A stretch of 56,896 nucleotides of DNA from positions 1 through 56,896 of IMG/VR virus record IMGVR_UViG_3300042935_001365, one strand, 5' to 3'. The notes under the pieces are model-generated. The model was not told where the DNA came from. It did not search any database and saw only the letters and a program-made list of their open reading frames with translations. A program made the translations under genes and the position numbers. Source of the DNA: a virus. Positions 25,103-56,427 of the stretch are shown piece by piece. Position 1 is the first letter of the stretch, and every line of letters starts with the position of its first letter.

Positions 25103-26677
25103 TTACCACCAAGTTCCTCCACCTGACAATCCTAATTGTTTTGCGTATCTTGGTAATCTACAACTCCAATAACCCGCACTACATTTATCATTTTTTTGAG
25201 TACAATTATGTCTGTCTGAAAATGCCTTTCTAGCCTTAGGGTCTCTAAGTTTAACTGCAAGATTACCTCCACCTGACTTAGCCCCAAAAGAAACTTTCTT
25301 AACTTTATCGTTACACATAACATAAACATAAAATTTCTTAGAACCACCTCTTTTAGGTTTACTAAGTTCTACTTTTTTTCCTTTATATTCTGCCTCATTT
25401 AAATTATATTCCTCATTTGGTATATCTAACCACACTAATTTACCTTCATATATTCCTTGTTTACCTATATCTGTTTTAATAATTTCTAAATCATTATGAG
25501 AAAGATCGACTCCACCTTTTTGATATACTACCCTAACCTCATTGATAAGGTTGAAGAAGGATTCGCTACCATACCTATATACTGTTTCTGTCAGAGGTAT
25601 TTGATTATCAATGTGATATTTTAAACCTTCACTTATAATAGATTTACTTTCCGTTATTAACATTCTATCGTAGTTTAAAGACTCATTCTTTTTAGATTTA
25701 TACCCTTTAACTTTAATAGGACTAGGTGTTTGACCTTTACCTGACTTACCATCTGTTTTTTCTCTTTCTCTCTTACGTCTACATGCAGAATCTTTAGACT
25801 CTTGACTCATGTTCGCCGCCACACTCTTTGCTCTACAAACTGGATACCCACCTTTGTCGGAATCACCTCTTCCACATTCAGGATGTCCACCACCTTCTTT
25901 TTTTCTACATATATTAACCCAAGGTCCTTGTGGTTGTTTAGTCCCTTTATTTTTTTTCTTTGTTCCAAACCAAACCGCCAAATCTTCATGTATTTCTATA
26001 TTGTGAAATGAATCTAAATCTTGTGACATTTCAGGTGACCAAGACTCATTAGTTTTACCAGAGCAATAACTCCCACTACATCTTTTTTTACCATCTAACC
26101 CCGCAATTGTACCTTTACAAACTTGAACTGCGTGTCCATTAGCGTAAGCAGAAGGGTAAACATCGTATTTAGATTTGGCAGAACTTACACCTCTAGCACA
26201 AAGTTTATTAGATTTTTTCTTTTTTCTTTCATCTAATCTTTCTGTATCTTCCTCATCTTCTTTCTCATTACTAGACGGCATAATACTTATACCATATTTG
26301 TTTAATATCTTCTCAAGTGCAATAGGAATCGCCATAGACACTGCACCCATACTCATAACTGCCACTATCTTTGCAATATCTTTAGATTGTGCCTTTAAAA
26401 ACTCAATATCCTTTTCAGATACCTCTTTTTTGGATAATAAGTCACCTAAAATCTTTACCGCTTTAACAGTTTCACTTTTTTCTCTTTTTGCTATCTTAAC
26501 AAAATTTTTCCATGAGTTAATCATATCATCTTTTTTGTTATTTAAAAAAGATTTCATTTTTTCACCAAACTCATTAACTACTTTAGGTTCTTCTTCTGAA
26601 AATAATCCAGTTGACTTATTATCAAACCTCATTTCATTAAATAGTTTTTTTAATTTTTCTCTATCTATCATACTCAT
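25103..26677 (-). CDS. mosaic virion-associated protein, 524 aa
   Basis: Segments in order: a leader-like MIDREKLKKLFNE; a hydrophobic helix (VAVMSMGAVSMAIPIALEKI, ~95-115); a CARGVSSAKSKYDVYPSAYA domain; a DUF5872-like PWVNICRKKEGGGHPECGR to SACRRKRERE domain; an internal leader-like MLITESKSIISE at ~345-360; and a C-terminal KKFYVYVMCNDKVKKVSFG ... DRHNC ... YWSCRLP domain. Each of these small Cys/Lys-rich domains occurs in proteins of T4-like and cyanophages. Probably a head-internal protein processed at several points. Function unproven. Confidence 0.68.
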   Translation of the reverse strand: MSMIDREKLKKLFNEMRFDNKSTGLFSEEEPKVVNEFGEKMKSFLNNKKDDMINSWKNFVKIAKREKSETVKAVKILGDLLSKKEVSEKDIEFLKAQSKDIAKIVAVMSMGAVSMAIPIALEKILNKYGISIMPSSNEKEDEEDTERLDERKKKKSNKLCARGVSSAKSKYDVYPSAYANGHAVQVCKGTIAGLDGKKRCSGSYCSGKTNESWSPEMSQDLDSFHNIEIHEDLAVWFGTKKKNKGTKQPQGPWVNICRKKEGGGHPECGRGDSDKGGYPVCRAKSVAANMSQESKDSACRRKREREKTDGKSGKGQTPSPIKVKGYKSKKNESLNYDRMLITESKSIISEGLKYHIDNQIPLTETVYRYGSESFFNLINEVRVVYQKGGVDLSHNDLEIIKTDIGKQGIYEGKLVWLDIPNEEYNLNEAEYKGKKVELSKPKRGGSKKFYVYVMCNDKVKKVSFGAKSGGGNLAVKLRDPKARKAFSDRHNCTQKNDKCSAGYWSCRLPRYAKQLGLSGGGTWW

Positions 26678-26679
26678 AA

Positions 26680-27768
26680 TTAATCTATTCTATATATATA
26701 ATAATATTCCCCATTGTATTTTTCATAACTTTCATTACCATCATAAGATGCTAATGTGACACCTCTATCTTCATTTTCAGCCAAATAAGACTCTAATCCT
26801 GACTCATCAAAATCGTAGTAGTATCGTATTGCATCTTCTTTAGACAACCCAAATTCGTCAGTAAAATAAGATAAACCACCATCTATTACCCTTTCTCTTA
26901 TCTCTTCATCATATTTTTCAATCAACTCCTCTCTAGCAGTATCAACTAAACTATCTAGTTCAGATTTCTTATCTTCTAATTGATCCCCTAAAGTATCCAT
27001 TTCAGAACTTAATTCTCTCATTTTAATAGTTACATCGTCAATAGCTGAATCGTTTTCACCCTCTTCATTATCTTCTTCTAGATCACTCATCTCATCGTCT
27101 AAATCAGATATTTCTGATTCAATCTCCTCAATTCTATATTCGATATTACTTATTTGTTCCTCAAATTCATCTTTATCGTATCCTGCTTCAGAAATTATAT
27201 CATCATCATCCATATCATCTACCCTATAATTTGCTTCTTCAGATGCGAAATGACTAAGACTATAATCATTAAGTTCGATATAGTCTTCAATTAGTGATAT
27301 ATCGATATTATCATACCCACCTTGATTGTCTACCCATCCATCAAAATACTTCTCCATTGCCGATGCAACGTCACTATCTGTCCCAACTGCAAATTTTTCA
27401 TCATCTTCTATATTACGGAAAACTTTTAACCCATAGTGTTCTTCATCGGTGTCTTCTATCATAATAGGAGGTAAATTTGCCCACTCCGACAAAGCTGCAT
27501 GTTCATCATAGTAGTTAGAAATGTCATCAATATCATCTAAATCTGAATCTGTAACCCCTTCATAATTACCATCTTCATTAAAATTGTTTACAAATAAATG
27601 TAACAATTCTAATTTTAGTGTCATATCCTCAATATTCAAAGTTTTTGTTAAAAATCCCCATATATCAGAAACATCATCAGTCTCACCTAAAGAAAGTGTC
27701 ATTGCCCTAAGAACTCTTTTATGTATTGGTAAAATGGTATTTTCAGTTATAAGTTTACTTAATTTCAT
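26680..27768 (-). CDS. leader-bearing coiled-coil protein, 362 aa, paralog of 21667
   Basis: Leader MKLSKLITE, shared helical domain (HKRVLRAMTLSLGETD...LLHLFVNNF), an acidic middle, a coiled coil at ~205-280 (QISNIEYRIEEIESEISDLD) and a Tyr-rich end (YEKYNGEYYYIYRID). Layout matches the 376-aa protein at 21667. First gene of the leader block; diverges from the bS21 gene. Confidence 0.65.
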   Translation of the reverse strand: MKLSKLITENTILPIHKRVLRAMTLSLGETDDVSDIWGFLTKTLNIEDMTLKLELLHLFVNNFNEDGNYEGVTDSDLDDIDDISNYYDEHAALSEWANLPPIMIEDTDEEHYGLKVFRNIEDDEKFAVGTDSDVASAMEKYFDGWVDNQGGYDNIDISLIEDYIELNDYSLSHFASEEANYRVDDMDDDDIISEAGYDKDEFEEQISNIEYRIEEIESEISDLDDEMSDLEEDNEEGENDSAIDDVTIKMRELSSEMDTLGDQLEDKKSELDSLVDTAREELIEKYDEEIRERVIDGGLSYFTDEFGLSKEDAIRYYYDFDESGLESYLAENEDRGVTLASYDGNESYEKYNGEYYYIYRID

Positions 27769-37696: not shown

Positions 37697-38023
37697 TTAT
37701 GTATTTTTTATTACTAAATTTAACCAATCTCCAATATCTTCCATTAATTCAACCTCCCCTTGTTCAATTATTTTATCCAAAATTCCTAACCCATAAGATG
37801 TTGCAACCCCATATCCTTTTTTATTACACTTATAACAACTACCACTAAATCCAATAAAATAATAGTAATCATCATCTTGTTCAACCTTTTCTATTCCAGA
37901 GTTCAACTTCCATCTATCACTAGTTAAATATCCACCAGCCCAAGTTCCAAAAACTTTATAGTAATTGTTTGGTAGTTTTAATACTACCCATCTTTCTGGA
38001 TTTTCACTTATATTTCTTTTCAT
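37697..38023 (-). CDS. conserved phage hypothetical protein, 108 aa
   Basis: Contains RWVVLKLPNNYYKVFGTWAG and FIGFSGSCYKCNKKGYG (CxxC). Pattern recalled from other phage genomes. Role unknown. Overlaps the ligase gene by 4 bases, so may belong with it. Confidence 0.62.
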   Translation of the reverse strand: MKRNISENPERWVVLKLPNNYYKVFGTWAGGYLTSDRWKLNSGIEKVEQDDDYYYFIGFSGSCYKCNKKGYGVATSYGLGILDKIIEQGEVELMEDIGDWLNLVIKNT

Positions 38024-39075
38024 AGTTTCCTAAATTTTGGTTTTAAAGCACTCCATATAATTTTATCATAATCTTTACCATCCCACATCGCAAACATAAT
38101 TGCCTTTGCAATTGGATGGTGGTTCTTAATATGTTCCGCAAATTCTTTCTTAGTTGGTTCTACTTCTATATCACCGTATTTACCAAATCTAAAATAATCA
38201 TAAGTTTTACCTAGTTGGTTATAGTATTGGTACCAATGATACCCCAAACTACTGGCGTAAGTTTTAATCTTACCATAAAATTCATCAGGAACATCTTTAA
38301 GAAAATCTTCTATTTTACCACCACTAGATAAAATTTCCCATACAGTTGTAGTTGATATATTTGTCATTATTTTATGTAATCTGAGATATTCTTCACCCTT
38401 TATCTTCATTCTGTCACCATTAGAAAATTTAACTACATAACCCTCTTCATCATCTTTTATTATATTTTTTAAGGTAGTGAAATCAGATATACCATCATAT
38501 TTTTTAACTACTCTAAAACCTATATTACGAATTAAATTTTTTAATCTTAGATCTACACCTTCACTATATAAGTCAACCTCATTTTCGGTTTTAGTATTTA
38601 TCATACCTAATAAGACTACATCCTCAAAATCATACTGCACTACTATTCTATTATCATCGTATATGATTTCAAATAAATAAGTATAATCTTTATGTAACTT
38701 ATCGTAATCATATTTTTGTAATAAATCAAAACCCTTTATAGATTGTTCGGAAGTGAATGAACCTCTAGTTGCCAATACCCATTGATCACCATAATGAAAT
38801 AGAATTCCTAATGAACCATCCATTTTATCATAAACGTCAAATTCAGATGTGGTAGTATGTTTACCTTCTTCCATATTAAAGAATTTTTTAAATGGTCTAC
38901 CAACAATATCCCCATTAGAATTTGTTACCAAACCCCTACACATCAGAGTTATCTTATCCCATAAAGATTCATATTGTACTTTTTCACTATAGTTCCAAAT
39001 AGTTATATCCAAAGTAGGGTGAACTTGTTTATGTAATAAACCCTTTTCAAAATATTCATTTAAAATTTCATTCAT
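38020..39075 (-). CDS. RNA ligase, T4 Rnl1-like
   Basis: 351 aa. Nucleotidyltransferase motif I VYDKMDGSLG with Lys84, then RG of ATRGSFTS, motif III-like YTYLFEIIYDDNRIVV, motif IV EGYVVKF and motif V MKIKGEEY. This order is that of T4 RnlA, which seals tRNA broken in the anticodon loop. With PNK and CCA-type genes nearby, a tRNA repair or processing role is likely. -7 box 4 bases above the ATG at 39080-39087. Confidence 0.87.
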   Translation of the reverse strand: MNEILNEYFEKGLLHKQVHPTLDITIWNYSEKVQYESLWDKITLMCRGLVTNSNGDIVGRPFKKFFNMEEGKHTTTSEFDVYDKMDGSLGILFHYGDQWVLATRGSFTSEQSIKGFDLLQKYDYDKLHKDYTYLFEIIYDDNRIVVQYDFEDVVLLGMINTKTENEVDLYSEGVDLRLKNLIRNIGFRVVKKYDGISDFTTLKNIIKDDEEGYVVKFSNGDRMKIKGEEYLRLHKIMTNISTTTVWEILSSGGKIEDFLKDVPDEFYGKIKTYASSLGYHWYQYYNQLGKTYDYFRFGKYGDIEVEPTKKEFAEHIKNHHPIAKAIMFAMWDGKDYDKIIWSALKPKFRKL

Positions 39076-41024: not shown

Positions 41025-41762
41025 TTATAATTCGTTAGTAGGTTTCAACCACATTCCTTTTGAGAATACTAAATCCAAAAATCCAGGTATGTAAGATTCT
41101 TCAACGGTATGAAGTAATCTTAAAGATAGTGGGGTATTATGTTTCATCATCTTAAAGATTTCTTCTCTCATTCTTTCAACTGAAACAGTTGTTTTTAATT
41201 TCTCTAAGATTTCAGGTTGAGCCATCGCGTCCCATATTTTTAAACTAATCGTAAATCCTTTTGTTACTGAGAATCTTAAAGCTCTCAATATTCTCAACGG
41301 ATCATCCATCATTGTTATTTCTGGGTTTAATGGAGTTCTCAAAATTCCATCTTCAAGATCCTTGAGTCCACCAAATAAATCAATTAGATTCCCATTTTCA
41401 TCTTCCGCCATCGAATTCAATGTGAAATCTCTTCTAATTAGATCATCTTCTAATGTCCCTAATTCTAAAATAGGTTGTCTAGTCCCTTCTTTGTAACCGA
41501 CCTCTTTTCTTGCGAGAACAAAGTCCGCAACTAATCCTTCGTTAACATCACCTTTAGGAAATTTAGCTCTGATAGTGAACATCTCTGGAGTAGAAAGGAA
41601 TATAGTAAACTCTTTATGTTCCATCCATTGTTTCATTATTTCGAAACCTTCATCTACTGTTCTATCTATGTTGTCGAGTACAAATGTGAAGTCAATATCT
41701 TTAGATTCAACACCTAAGATACTATCTCTTACACAACCACCAACTTTATATATCTGAGGCAT
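41025..41762 (-). CDS. tRNA nucleotidyltransferase / poly(A) polymerase family (CCA-adding-like)
   Basis: 245 aa. KVGGCVRDSILG, KDIDFTFVL (catalytic DxD), RRDFTLNSMAEDE, NGNLIDLFGGLKDLEDG and DPLRILRALRFS are the core of class II CCA-adding enzymes. It is shorter than cellular enzymes (~400 aa), lacking the C-terminal body. It lies just after the tRNA cluster, and most tRNA genes here do not encode CCA, so repair or completion of phage tRNA ends is the likely job. Confidence 0.85.
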   Translation of the reverse strand: MPQIYKVGGCVRDSILGVESKDIDFTFVLDNIDRTVDEGFEIMKQWMEHKEFTIFLSTPEMFTIRAKFPKGDVNEGLVADFVLARKEVGYKEGTRQPILELGTLEDDLIRRDFTLNSMAEDENGNLIDLFGGLKDLEDGILRTPLNPEITMMDDPLRILRALRFSVTKGFTISLKIWDAMAQPEILEKLKTTVSVERMREEIFKMMKHNTPLSLRLLHTVEESYIPGFLDLVFSKGMWLKPTNEL

Positions 41763-42480: not shown

Positions 42481-42579
42481 TAGTCAGGACAGGATTTGAA
42501 CCTGTATGGTAATTTTTTCAGTACCTCCACAACCCATGGATTTACGTGGTCTTTGCGTCTACCATTCCGCCACCTGACT
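42481..42579 (-). tRNA. oversized tRNA-Leu-like gene, 99 nt
   Basis: Ends are those of a leucine tRNA: AGTCAGG/CCTGACT acceptor, D-arm GCGGAATGGTAGACGC, T-arm ACAGG TTCAAAT CCTGT. A variable arm GGTA...TACC is present. The anticodon region is ~11 nt too long and folds as a CCAC...GTGG hairpin with no standard 7-nt loop, so no anticodon can be assigned. Confidence 0.6.
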
Positions 42580-43132: not shown

Positions 43133-43173
43133 AATTTGAGATTTTTAATTTTCGGAATCTCATAACCGTTACG

Positions 43174-43330
43174 TGGTTGGGGTAGGATTCGAACCTACAT
43201 AAACACTTTGAAATTTACCTACGCACCGTGAGGTAGTGTTCTTCATCATTTGCATTGCCTAACCATTGATCGATTTTACGTTTCGGCTGCCGTGCGTGTC
43301 AATAAGCGTCTACCATTCCGCCACCCAACC
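43174..43330 (-). tRNA. oversized tRNA-Leu-like gene, 157 nt
   Basis: Acceptor GGTTGGG/CCCAACC, Leu-type D-arm GCGGAATGGTAGACGC, T-arm GTAGG TTCGAAT CCTAC. The core holds an extra ~80 nt with ATTGA/TCAAT, AACACT/AGTGTT and ACCT/AGGT stems. One reading places ATTTCAA as anticodon loop beside AGTGT, but this is unsure. Confidence 0.6.
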
Positions 43331-43378
43331 ATACTACATCTCCTTTCGATTCTATAAGGAATCTACTCCGTTCTGTTG

Positions 43379-44577: not shown

Positions 44578-44694
44578 TAGTCAGAACAGGATTCGAACCT
44601 GTGTTTACACTTTACTTGTATTAGTTGTGTCCGATAGATTGGGTATCAATACATTTCCCGCACCACCTGCTCTTAACCACTGAGCTACCTGACT
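44578..44694 (-). tRNA. oversized tRNA-like gene, 117 nt
   Basis: AGTCAGG/TCTGACT acceptor, D-arm GCTC AGTGGTTAA GAGC, T-arm ACAGG TTCGAAT CCTGT. Core is ~42 nt too long, with ATTG/CAAT and ACAC/GTGT stems; no clear anticodon loop. Confidence 0.6.
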
Positions 44695-44788: not shown

Positions 44789-44912
44789 TAGTCAGGACAG
44801 GATTCGAACCTGTATGATAACTTATGAGCAGTCTTAACGGGTCTTTCGAGGTTACTCACGTTATCTTTACTATTAACCTTTATTCATGCGTCTACCATTC
44901 CGCCACCTGACT
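44789..44912 (-). tRNA. oversized tRNA-Leu-like gene, 124 nt
   Basis: Same ends as the 42481 gene (AGTCAGG acceptor, Leu D-arm, ACAGG T-arm). A GATAAC/GTTATC helix, with a TGAG/CTCA inner helix, adds ~40 nt. CTCATAA lies right before GTTATC and could be an anticodon loop (CAT) if flanked by ATAAC/GTTAT. Confidence 0.6.
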
Positions 44913-45045: not shown

Positions 45046-45205
45046 TAGTCAGGACAGGAATCGAACCTGTATGAGTTCCATGTTTTATCATGCCTTGTTT
45101 CCCTTTTAGTACCTAAACCGCCTAGCATGCAGCACCAATTTAGGTAGTAAGGAACTCTAATAAGATTGTATATAACTTAGCGTCTACCAATTCCGCCACC
45201 TGACT
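45046..45205 (-). tRNA. oversized tRNA-Leu-like gene, 160 nt
   Basis: AGTCAGG/CCTGACT acceptor, D-arm GCGGAATTGGTAGACGC, T-arm ACAGG TTCGATT CCTGT. A 7-bp GAGTTCC/GGAACTC variable-arm helix carries a ~70-nt insert with an ACCTAAA/TTTAGGT hairpin and a possible CATGC/GCATG pseudoknot. The anticodon position shows TAAGTTATATACAAT, repeated in element 3. Confidence 0.6.
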
Positions 45206-50499: not shown

Positions 50500-50747
50500 T
50501 AGTCTATTATTTTAAATGTTGTCGTTACTATTTCTTTACCATTCTTTTGTTCTTCGTATATTTTATCGAACTCTATTTTTTCTAAAGCGAGAGATTCACT
50601 ACTGAATGGACCACAATACATATTTTCCCATCTTATATTAGACCTACTTTGTAAAAAACTTCTAGTTGTCACTAAATAACCTTTCTGTGGTACATATCTT
50701 GTCTCACCATTTTTTAATTCTTCAATTTTTATTCTATAATAACTCAT
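50499..50747 (-). CDS. hypothetical protein, 82 aa
   Basis: Start at ATG 50747 (MSYYRIKIEELKNG). Beta strands and NIRWENMYCGPFSSESLALE. Overlaps the HAD gene by 14 bases and the next gene by 1. Confidence 0.58.
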   Translation of the reverse strand: MSYYRIKIEELKNGETRYVPQKGYLVTTRSFLQSRSNIRWENMYCGPFSSESLALEKIEFDKIYEEQKNGKEIVTTTFKIID

Positions 50748-51291
50748 CACTTAAAAATTTTATTATTCTTTCTTTAATCCCACTTTGTTTAATACCTTCT
50801 GTACTCTTAGGTGTCAACACAAAATTATCAAGTCCCCAATCTCTCCAATTCTCACCATTCTTACCCATATCCAAATCATCAACTGCAACCCAATGAGTTA
50901 TTTCTGGATGATTATGTAGATATTGTTTTATTTCAATTGATCTAGTTTGTTCTAAATCCCATTGTGGTGACCACATAAAATTGTTTCCATGAACGGTACA
51001 TTCACTTAACATCGGTGTTAAGTCTATTGGTGGGTTAATACCTCTAGTTATATACATTTCTTTCATTTGTTCTAATGTACCCCATCTTTTCCAATCTGAA
51101 GAGATAACTAATTCACATCCTGTTTCCTCAATAATTTTTTTGAGTACTTTAATTGCCTTATCGTCAAAATTATCCATTCTTACATCTAAAGGGGTTTCGG
51201 GATTACTATCGTATCCTTTTTTCTTAAACCTACCTCCCCAGTTGTTCGCCAAACATATCACACCATCGTGATCTAAAAATATTACTTTCAT
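50734..51291 (-). CDS. HAD-superfamily protein, HAD_SAK-like (RNA repair type)
   Basis: 185 aa. MKVIFLDHDGVICLANNWGG (motif I DxDG), LVISSDWKRWG (motif II Ser), EIKQYLHNHPEI and WVAVDDLDMG (motif IV). This is the HAD version linked to Swiss-army-knife RNA repair proteins. It is a likely nucleic-acid end phosphatase. Directly follows a paralog (51288) with a 4-base overlap. Confidence 0.75.
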   Translation of the reverse strand: MKVIFLDHDGVICLANNWGGRFKKKGYDSNPETPLDVRMDNFDDKAIKVLKKIIEETGCELVISSDWKRWGTLEQMKEMYITRGINPPIDLTPMLSECTVHGNNFMWSPQWDLEQTRSIEIKQYLHNHPEITHWVAVDDLDMGKNGENWRDWGLDNFVLTPKSTEGIKQSGIKERIIKFLSDELL

Positions 51292-51923
51292 TGTACAGTT
51301 TTTGTTAGTTTTTCATAATTAGAATTATGTTCAAATTGTCTATTAATTCTATATAGGTGATTTGGATTCAAACCAAACCAAGGGTCACAATGGTGGAACT
51401 TATAAAATTGTTCAGGTAACATATCACTATCGTCATCTAATATCGCATAATCTTTAACCTCTGGATGATTATCCAACCAATCTTTTATTTCTTCACCACG
51501 AAGAGTTTTATGGGTTTCAGTTATCCCAACATAAGTCCCAGGTTTAAACCCCAATAACTGAAAGGCATCCTCCCATTTTTCAGGAGTTCTCCTATAACCC
51601 TTAACACCAAAATGGTTTTTCCAAACAGATGATACACAAATTTTAGTATCGGTGTTATTACACCATTCAGATAACCATCCCCATTTATCTACACAGGTTT
51701 CATTTTGTAACCTATTCATTTGATATTCAAAAGTAAAATGTGAATCTGGTGTTTTATAATCTGATAAAGAAATTCCTTTAGATTTTATCCCAAACAATTT
51801 TCTAAAAATACGTTTAGTTTCCCACCAGTAAGTAATTGGTTTTAACCATCTGCGTTTATGTCTTTTCTCATAAAAGACACGAGAATTCATAACACCATCA
51901 ATATCTAAAAATATTACTTTCAT
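51288..51923 (-). CDS. HAD-superfamily protein, HAD_SAK-like, second copy
   Basis: 211 aa. MKVIFLDIDGVMNSRVFYEK (motif I), basic insert RHKRRWLKP, KICVSSVWKN (motif II), LRGEEIKDWLDNHPEV and YAILDDDSDM (motif IV). Paralog of the 50734 protein, diverged, suggesting distinct substrates. Adjacent to the cyclic-phosphate receiver-like gene (1 base). Confidence 0.75.
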   Translation of the reverse strand: MKVIFLDIDGVMNSRVFYEKRHKRRWLKPITYWWETKRIFRKLFGIKSKGISLSDYKTPDSHFTFEYQMNRLQNETCVDKWGWLSEWCNNTDTKICVSSVWKNHFGVKGYRRTPEKWEDAFQLLGFKPGTYVGITETHKTLRGEEIKDWLDNHPEVKDYAILDDDSDMLPEQFYKFHHCDPWFGLNPNHLYRINRQFEHNSNYEKLTKTVQ

Positions 51924-55854: not shown

Positions 55855-55887
55855 ATTTTTAATTATACCGAATTCGGTATAATTGAG

Positions 55888-55962
55888 TTCCCCCGACAGG
55901 ATTCGAACCTGTGGCCCGTACATTAAAAGTGTACTGCTCTAAACCAACTGAGCTACGAGGGA
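55888..55962 (-). tRNA. tRNA-Lys (UUU)
   Basis: 75 nt complete cloverleaf, anticodon arm GTACA CTTTTAA TGTAC. A second Lys tRNA of the same anticodon exists in permuted form at 56283. Confidence 0.96.
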
Positions 55963-56282: not shown

Positions 56283-56427
56283 AAATGATAATCAGGATTA
56301 GATTTATACGTGCTCTACCAACTGAGCTACCGCCGCCCCGAAGGACAACGGACAGGATTCGAACCTGCGACACCGAGCTTAAAAGGCTAATGTAATTGTT
56401 GCTGAAACAATCCTTTTATTATCATTT
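56283..56427 (-). tRNA. circularly permuted tRNA-Lys (UUU)
   Basis: On the minus strand the 3' half (56388-56344: AGC CTTTTAA GCTCG, GTGTC, GCAGG TTCGAAT CCTGT, CCGTTGT) comes first; the 5' half (56336-56309: GCGGCGG TA GCTC AGTTGGTA GAGC A CG) follows. Acceptor strands are joined by a 9-bp hairpin with a TTCG tetraloop (56342-56339). Joining CG (27-28) to AGC (29-31) gives a perfect CGAGC/GCTCG anticodon stem. The outer ends pair over ~16 bp (AAATGATAAT/ATTATCATTT and GGATT/AATCC). The mature tRNA would be ~73 nt. Confidence 0.78.

Follow-up and report, generated by a model that had tools for sequence, protein, structure and literature searches.

A permuted tRNA-like element in a phage tRNA array is probably a Y RNA-like mimic of tRNA and part of a DUF2828 ribonucleoprotein

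Two tRNA halves in swapped order within a phage tRNA array raise the question whether the phage carries a circularly permuted tRNA gene, as known in algae and archaea, or an RNA of another kind. The window, which is the whole stretch of DNA that was analysed, covers all 56,896 bases of one IMG/VR record and is a fragment. By direct inspection of the sequence, the minus strand from 56427 to 56283 was found to contain a tRNA 3′ half followed by a tRNA 5′ half, flanked by tRNA-Ser and tRNA-Asp of a tRNA array. A sequence-only reading had interpreted this element as a permuted tRNA-Lys gene. Its parts are the following.

56418–56427, minus strand: 5′ strand of the outer flank helix P1a (AAATGATAAT), from the sequence and paired in the MFE fold
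56409–56414, minus strand: 5′ strand of the inner flank helix P1b (AGGATT), within the class B signature AAAAGGATTGTTTCAGCAA, from the sequence, the MFE fold and the signature scan
56399–56404, minus strand: class B CAGCAA motif, common to the class B relatives
56345–56388, minus strand: tRNA-like module, 3′ half (tRNA positions 29–72), from the sequence, the relatives and Rfam
56379–56385, minus strand: anticodon loop CUUUUAA, inside the 3′ half
56352–56368, minus strand: T arm, inside the 3′ half
56345–56351, minus strand: acceptor 3′ strand, inside the 3′ half
56337–56344, minus strand: closing loop CCUUCGGG (C-G pairs plus UUCG tetraloop), leading from the acceptor 3′ strand to the 5′ strand, from the sequence and the MFE fold
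56309–56336, minus strand: 5′ half, positions 1–28 (acceptor 5′ strand, D arm and positions 26–28), from the sequence, the relatives and Rfam
56294–56299, minus strand: 3′ strand of P1b (AATCCT), from the sequence and the signature scan
56283–56292, minus strand: 3′ strand of P1a (ATTATCATTT), from the sequence and the MFE fold

The layout that had been read from the letters was borne out. The 3′ half (56388–56345) precedes the 5′ half (56336–56309), the acceptor hairpin comprises 9 bp (7 plus CC/GG) closed by a UUCG loop, and the break between positions 28 and 29 heals to a perfect anticodon stem, in which CG (27–28) plus AGC (29–31) pair with GCUCG (39–43) at five of five positions. The helix of about 16 bp that had been noted in the flanks consists of 10 bp (P1a) and 6 bp (P1b). 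Folded as RNA, the element reached −44 kcal/mol, whereas its shuffles averaged −30.5 (z −3.96), and 0 of 200 of them were as good. In addition, a scan of both strands for complete permuted cloverleafs returned one in the real window and none in 30 dinucleotide shuffles, while ARAGORN did not call the permuted element in the window.

When a pattern made up of the T arm, the UUCG loop and the D arm was searched for, it matched 87 viral stretches and at least 120 stretches of bacterial and archaeal genomes. Most of the viral matches listed repeated the 28|29 break. As the sequence-only reading had proposed, related phages were compared: the layout, the break, the closed hairpin and the flank helix recurred with compensatory changes, where the pairing of the acceptor and T arm was demanded by the scan, so that covariation in these two arms is no independent evidence. 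The opposite outcome, relatives with truncated tRNA copies that lack the helices, was not seen among them, and the helices were kept. Within the stretch compared, the element of a near relative (G001, locus L042) differed from that of the window only in the downstream strand, and a second near relative (L054) retained it as well.

This layout is that of the YrlA Y RNAs, including bacterial copies linked to rsr, which argues against the identity as a tRNA gene. YrlA, reportedly described by Chen et al. in 2014, is a bacterial Y RNA with a tRNA-like module. The phage element shares with it the permuted arrangement of D arm, T arm and closed acceptor hairpin, the stem that leaves from the anticodon arm, the lack of a free CCA end and a protein of Ro60 fold encoded alongside, here a predicted one, DUF2828, in the genome of a near relative. 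The Rfam model of YrlA (RF02553) matched the window at 56309–56375 (model positions 24–84) with 33.2 bits and six relatives with 33.9–48.3 bits, none of which reached the gathering cut-off of 69 bits. This cut-off is an unfair bar, because the rsr-linked bacterial copies in four loci themselves scored only 33.4–55.4 bits. As for the controls, a pair of neighbouring ordinary tRNAs in the window scored 19.1 bits, and sub-cut-off matches at E ≤ 0.001 occurred in 7 of 14 control genomes. With scores below the cut-off and mixed controls, the YrlA name therefore draws less on the score than on the common layout and the genes nearby. A small self-splicing ribozyme in the flanks, an idea prompted by the conservation of the flanks, was dropped after the Rfam match to YrlA.

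The permuted module recurs across phages and bacteria with two main flank classes, which were set by regular expressions plus inspection by eye. Class A flanks carry GNYGNAG ... CUUGUUC around a second stem, a motif that we take to be the Ro60 site of Y RNAs. In class B flanks, a split stem is followed on the 5′ strand by CAGCAA or a variant of it, and position 28 by UAUAAA-like letters. By eye and by regular expression, the Ro60-type internal loop of the YrlA flank stem is absent from class B, which has the helix and CAGCAA instead. The window element, with its AGG-stem and [ACT]GCAA and their 3′ partner, belongs to class B; it is one of seven records that were moved to this class by eye (the window, L015, L042, L054, L256, L268 and L332), and two others (L008 and L077) were taken out of it in the same way. 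In L018, L023, L028 and L053, the same permuted module has flanks of a third, small type, marked by UUCCUUC..AAUU ahead of position 29. Class B elements without an anticodon hairpin have near-identical TTACAGCAATTAAA-type strands in six records (L250, L270, L272, L287, L298 and L330), and all of these records but L270 also list a class B element that has an anticodon arm. In Microbacterium phage Big4 (L349), a class A YrlA-like RNA at 977–1044 is overlapped by an annotated tRNA-Ser gene; the annotation of phages may mistake RNAs of this kind for tRNAs.

The two classes differ in the protein that accompanies them. Of the class A phage records tested, 40 of 50 contained TROVE, 38 of them above the curated cut-off; the 50 are a sample of 82 script-labelled class A loci, and of these 82, 3 are class B by eye and 4 are of the third type. 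None of the 48 class B records, the window included and many of them fragments, contained TROVE (Fisher p 2e-18, with kinship ignored). Likewise, among the bacterial matches listed, TROVE lay in the same stretch (≤8 kb) in 51 of 64 loci with class A RNAs and in 1 of 45 loci without such an RNA. In an earlier test of 25 records, TROVE was absent from L018 and L053 (third type), from the A-like L050 and from the unclassed L021, and these four were excluded from all later TROVE and DUF2828 counts.

Comparison of the proteins encoded near class B RNAs revealed one family in 10 of 48 loci, namely DUF2828 with a vWA domain. When whole records were tested, DUF2828 was found in 15 of the 22 class B records that reach 50 kb and in 8 of the 26 below that size, hence in 23 of 48; the 25 without it are mostly fragments. 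Leaving out the ten discovery loci, the count was 13 of 38. Among class B records of at least 80 kb, 11 of 12 contained the family, or 8 of 9 after removal of three discovery loci. By contrast, DUF2828 occurred in none of 28 class A records (15/22 versus 0/28, p 8e-8, with kinship ignored). Across phage records, the family occurs in 681 of 50,697. It was not found in the 57-kb window record; the 254-kb near relative G001, whose element is nearly identical, encodes it. In a contig from a bacterial genome (L229), which is perhaps a prophage, a permuted element of class B also lies beside a DUF2828 fragment.

The predicted fold of DUF2828 is that of Ro60. An AlphaFold model of a phage DUF2828 protein (mean pLDDT 78.2, pTM 0.71) aligned with Ro60 over 408 of 479 residues in VIA (Z 17.3). 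The first ten rows of that search were all Ro60/TROVE proteins, with Z from 17.3 to 11.7, and the next was a vWA-only match at 10.2; the Ro60 of Thermus phage phiLo was among the structural matches. Similarly, all four Foldseek matches of the model at E ≤ 0.001 were Ro60/TROVE. In contrast to this likeness in predicted structure, the sequence similarity to Ro60/Rsr was faint: the DUF2828 profile scored 6e-8 to 9e-6 against phage and bacterial TROVE proteins and a non-significant 0.29–0.4 against Ro60 from the PDB.

These results bear on the possibility that the element is a YrlA that works with the Ro60 (Rsr) of the host and that class B flanks are merely a divergent Ro60 site. The layout does match YrlA, and the class B 3′ strand often reads CUUGUU or CCUGUU, as in class A. 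This explanation is nevertheless unlikely, given that TROVE was absent from all 48 class B phage records and DUF2828 takes its place.

The association was also approached from the side of the protein, using the best 80 of at least 575 viral DUF2828 relatives, that is, those nearest the query. A loose motif scan, with 331 matches versus 89 in shuffles, was rejected as too unspecific, and a strict signature was used instead (AGG-stem plus [ACT]GCAA, with a partner strand that ends in CCTGTT). This strict signature occurred in 175 copies on the DUF2828 strand in 69 of the 80 loci and once on the opposite strand, whereas shuffles of both strands yielded 3 copies, the 50 class A loci 1 and the 120 listed bacterial loci 4. 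It lay within 1 kb upstream of DUF2828 in 53 of the 68 loci that have 1 kb upstream. When nothing but the anchors was prescribed, all four inner stem pairs formed in 118 of 126 copies, many of which are near relatives; when the partners were shuffled in 2000 rounds, the mean was 16 and the maximum 33. A class B-type permuted tRNA module was found in only 14 of the 80 loci. The tRNA mimic is therefore one insert among others, the same flanks in DUF2828 loci holding quite different inserts. These many non-tRNA-like inserts and the link to DUF2828 rather than TROVE set class B apart from YrlA, as do its flank motif and its scores below the Rfam cut-off.

In the window, GATT follows the 3′ strand of P1b as opposed to GTT in most DUF2828-linked copies. 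With the tail relaxed to CCTG[TA][TA], the whole window gave a single signature match, which was the permuted element (tail CCTGATT). For EfV12 and for 11 DUF2828 neighbourhoods from class B phages of the tRNA type, the strict scan returned no sense matches; there, the RNA sits elsewhere or the stem is a variant. Indeed, EfV12 has four variant elements at DUF2828 by eye. Among 11 named phages inspected by eye, class B-like elements adjoin DUF2828 in 9, including momo (host E. coli K-12 MG1655), Campylobacter CP81, Listeria AG20 and LeBron, and none was obvious in Vibrio CZ01 and Aeromonas AsFcp_4. Adjacency of DUF2828 and the RNA as a general rule was rejected: it is true nearest the query and in several named phages, and fails in the 11 neighbourhoods.

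Comparative pairing establishes the fold, the element belongs to class B, and this class co-occurs with DUF2828 and not with TROVE. Judged from sequence comparison and structure modelling, the element is quite probably a Y RNA-like tRNA mimic that belongs to a DUF2828 ribonucleoprotein and stays unspliced. Its effector domain would be a mimic of a whole tRNA, with D arm, T arm and sealed acceptor hairpin, from which the flanking stem would depart at the anticodon arm between 28 and 29. We infer that the RNA would be transcribed along with the tRNA array and left unspliced, and that the stem and the CAGCAA motif would bind the phage-made DUF2828 protein of predicted Ro60 fold. The tRNA-shaped module could then present a factor that reads tRNA shape to the ring, or fill the ring as a decoy. 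Candidates for such a factor would be a nuclease, a modification enzyme or an enzyme of RNA decay.

A true circularly permuted tRNA gene, as originally proposed, would have its flanks cut off, its 28|29 break sealed by an Rnl1-type ligase and its UUCG loop opened by RNase P and a 3′ nuclease, whereupon CCA would be added and the tRNA charged. The window does encode proteins of interest for this route, and they likely form an RNA-repair set. The Rnl1-type ligase is unneeded by a Y RNA and relevant to splicing. These genes, and the ordinary tRNA that shares the anticodon of the element, are as follows.

38020–39075, minus strand: T4 Rnl1-type RNA ligase (PF09511, E 1.4e-17, profile match)
41025–41762, minus strand: PolyA_pol/CCA-type nucleotidyltransferase
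50734–51291 and 51288–51923, minus strand: adjacent pair of HAD_SAK_2 (RNA repair) proteins
55887–55962, minus strand: ordinary tRNA-Lys(TTT) of the same array, called by ARAGORN

The cloverleaf assembled from both halves, with the 3′ half first, is complete. Among 41 window-type elements, 27 pairs with 43 in 40 and 28 with 42 in all 41; U33 was present in 39 and A37A38 in 38, as in a working anticodon loop, the anticodon register having been chosen by score in a scan that favoured U33. Like the permuted tRNA genes of algae and archaea, the element has its 3′ half before its 5′ half with a short spacer between them. It differs from those genes in its break at 28|29, its conserved flank domain, its sealed acceptor loop and the absence of an anticodon stem from some members of the family. 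Circularly permuted tRNA genes are defined by a bulge-helix-bulge cleavage motif at their junctions; by eye, the junction of the element falls in unpaired strands rich in A/U.

Several observations point to a mimic rather than such a gene. Of 55 unique permuted elements of class B, 13 have no anticodon hairpin across the break, and in 51 no CCA follows directly after the acceptor, the end of which is closed. The same anticodon was already available in 13 of 17 loci with at least nine ordinary tRNAs, and in the window the ordinary tRNA-Lys(TTT) lies 324 bases from the element. Three elements have the anticodon AUU, which to our knowledge no bacterial tRNA uses. The pair G3·U70, which is the identity pair for alanine, occurred in 13 of 41 elements versus 24 of 416 ordinary tRNAs nearby, while 1–72 pairs varied in both alike. 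In the window, the acceptor bears G1·U72, G3·U70 and C73, and by the identity rules these make a poor acceptor for a lysine tRNA. Finally, the ligase is patchy. Rnl1 occurred in 9 of 22 class B versus 0 of 28 class A records, but 13 of the 22 lacked it and RtcB was found in none of them, these records including fragments and the ligase families covered being Rnl1 (PF09511) and RtcB; RtcB was present in 4 of 28 class A records. An RNA ligase as general partner was thus rejected as not universal. Together with the non-tRNA inserts in the same flanks, these findings make a permuted tRNA gene very unlikely. That the element is a functionless, decayed tRNA relic of recombination is extremely improbable, for although this array holds many tRNAs and such arrays in phages undergo turnover, the signature stem pairs well above its shuffles, the element is kept in near relatives and the motif is strand-bound to one gene, DUF2828.

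The window also contains a group of odd tRNA-like genes, at the following positions.

42481–42579, minus strand: odd tRNA-like gene
43165–43333, minus strand: odd tRNA-like gene
44578–44694, minus strand: odd tRNA-like gene
44789–44912, minus strand: odd tRNA-like gene
about 45083–45203, minus strand: odd tRNA-like gene

These five have acceptor, D and T arms, and other, longer structures replace the anticodon arm. Three of them pass the Rfam tRNA cut-off, and ARAGORN misses them. The class B motif is absent from all five, which may be another kind of tRNA mimic.

YrlA, phage Y RNAs and phage Ro60 have already been published (PMC7765460, PMC7824862, PMC12282133). The sequence-only reading had known of no permuted tRNA genes in phages. 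This stood for tRNA genes proper in the literature searched, which consisted mostly of papers outside subscription; it did not stand for Y RNAs with tRNA-like modules, which two papers report in phages (PMC7765460, PMC12282133). In the same body of literature we came across no account of the class B signature, and of its pairing with DUF2828 only a guess on Listeria phage CKA15. In this phage, the Rsr-like protein CKA15_055 was detected in purified particles too, and the authors of the study surmise that the abundant noncoding RNAs close by may be Y RNAs, naming no motif or family there (PMC12282133). The 401 bp before the Rsr-like gene, which hold three class B elements, are identical to AG20. 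The most transcribed noncoding region of CKA15, the only one placed by coordinates (26,236–26,727; PMC12282133), maps to about 2489–2980 of AG20 (L458), and no class B motif was seen in these about 490 nt. The abundant region thus lies elsewhere, and we therefore make no claim of class B expression. Phage annotators already label some DUF2828 proteins as Ro-like, such as LeBron gp53, and overexpression of gp53 slows the host (PMC13148394). As far as these sources extend, Y RNAs in phages are known, and one guess, on a Listeria phage, is all that they contain on the pairing of class B with DUF2828.

More tentatively, and as a possibility about which we remain rather doubtful, the Ro60 fold may have a second branch in the DUF2828 proteins. 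These would own a separate class of RNAs and, as ribonucleoproteins whose RNA cargo can be exchanged, would occur across unrelated phage families. Mimics of a whole tRNA with a real anticodon arm, such as this Lys-UUU element, may then be one type of cargo and act as decoys or baits for host enzymes that read or attack the anticodon arms of tRNAs, for example anticodon nucleases during infection. What appeared to be a one-off permuted tRNA leads to a rule, in which a class of phage RNAs is split according to the Ro60-fold protein of the genome. For phage annotation, this means that calls of permuted tRNAs should be checked against Y RNAs first. For DUF2828, an uncharacterised family, the linked RNA offers a testable role.
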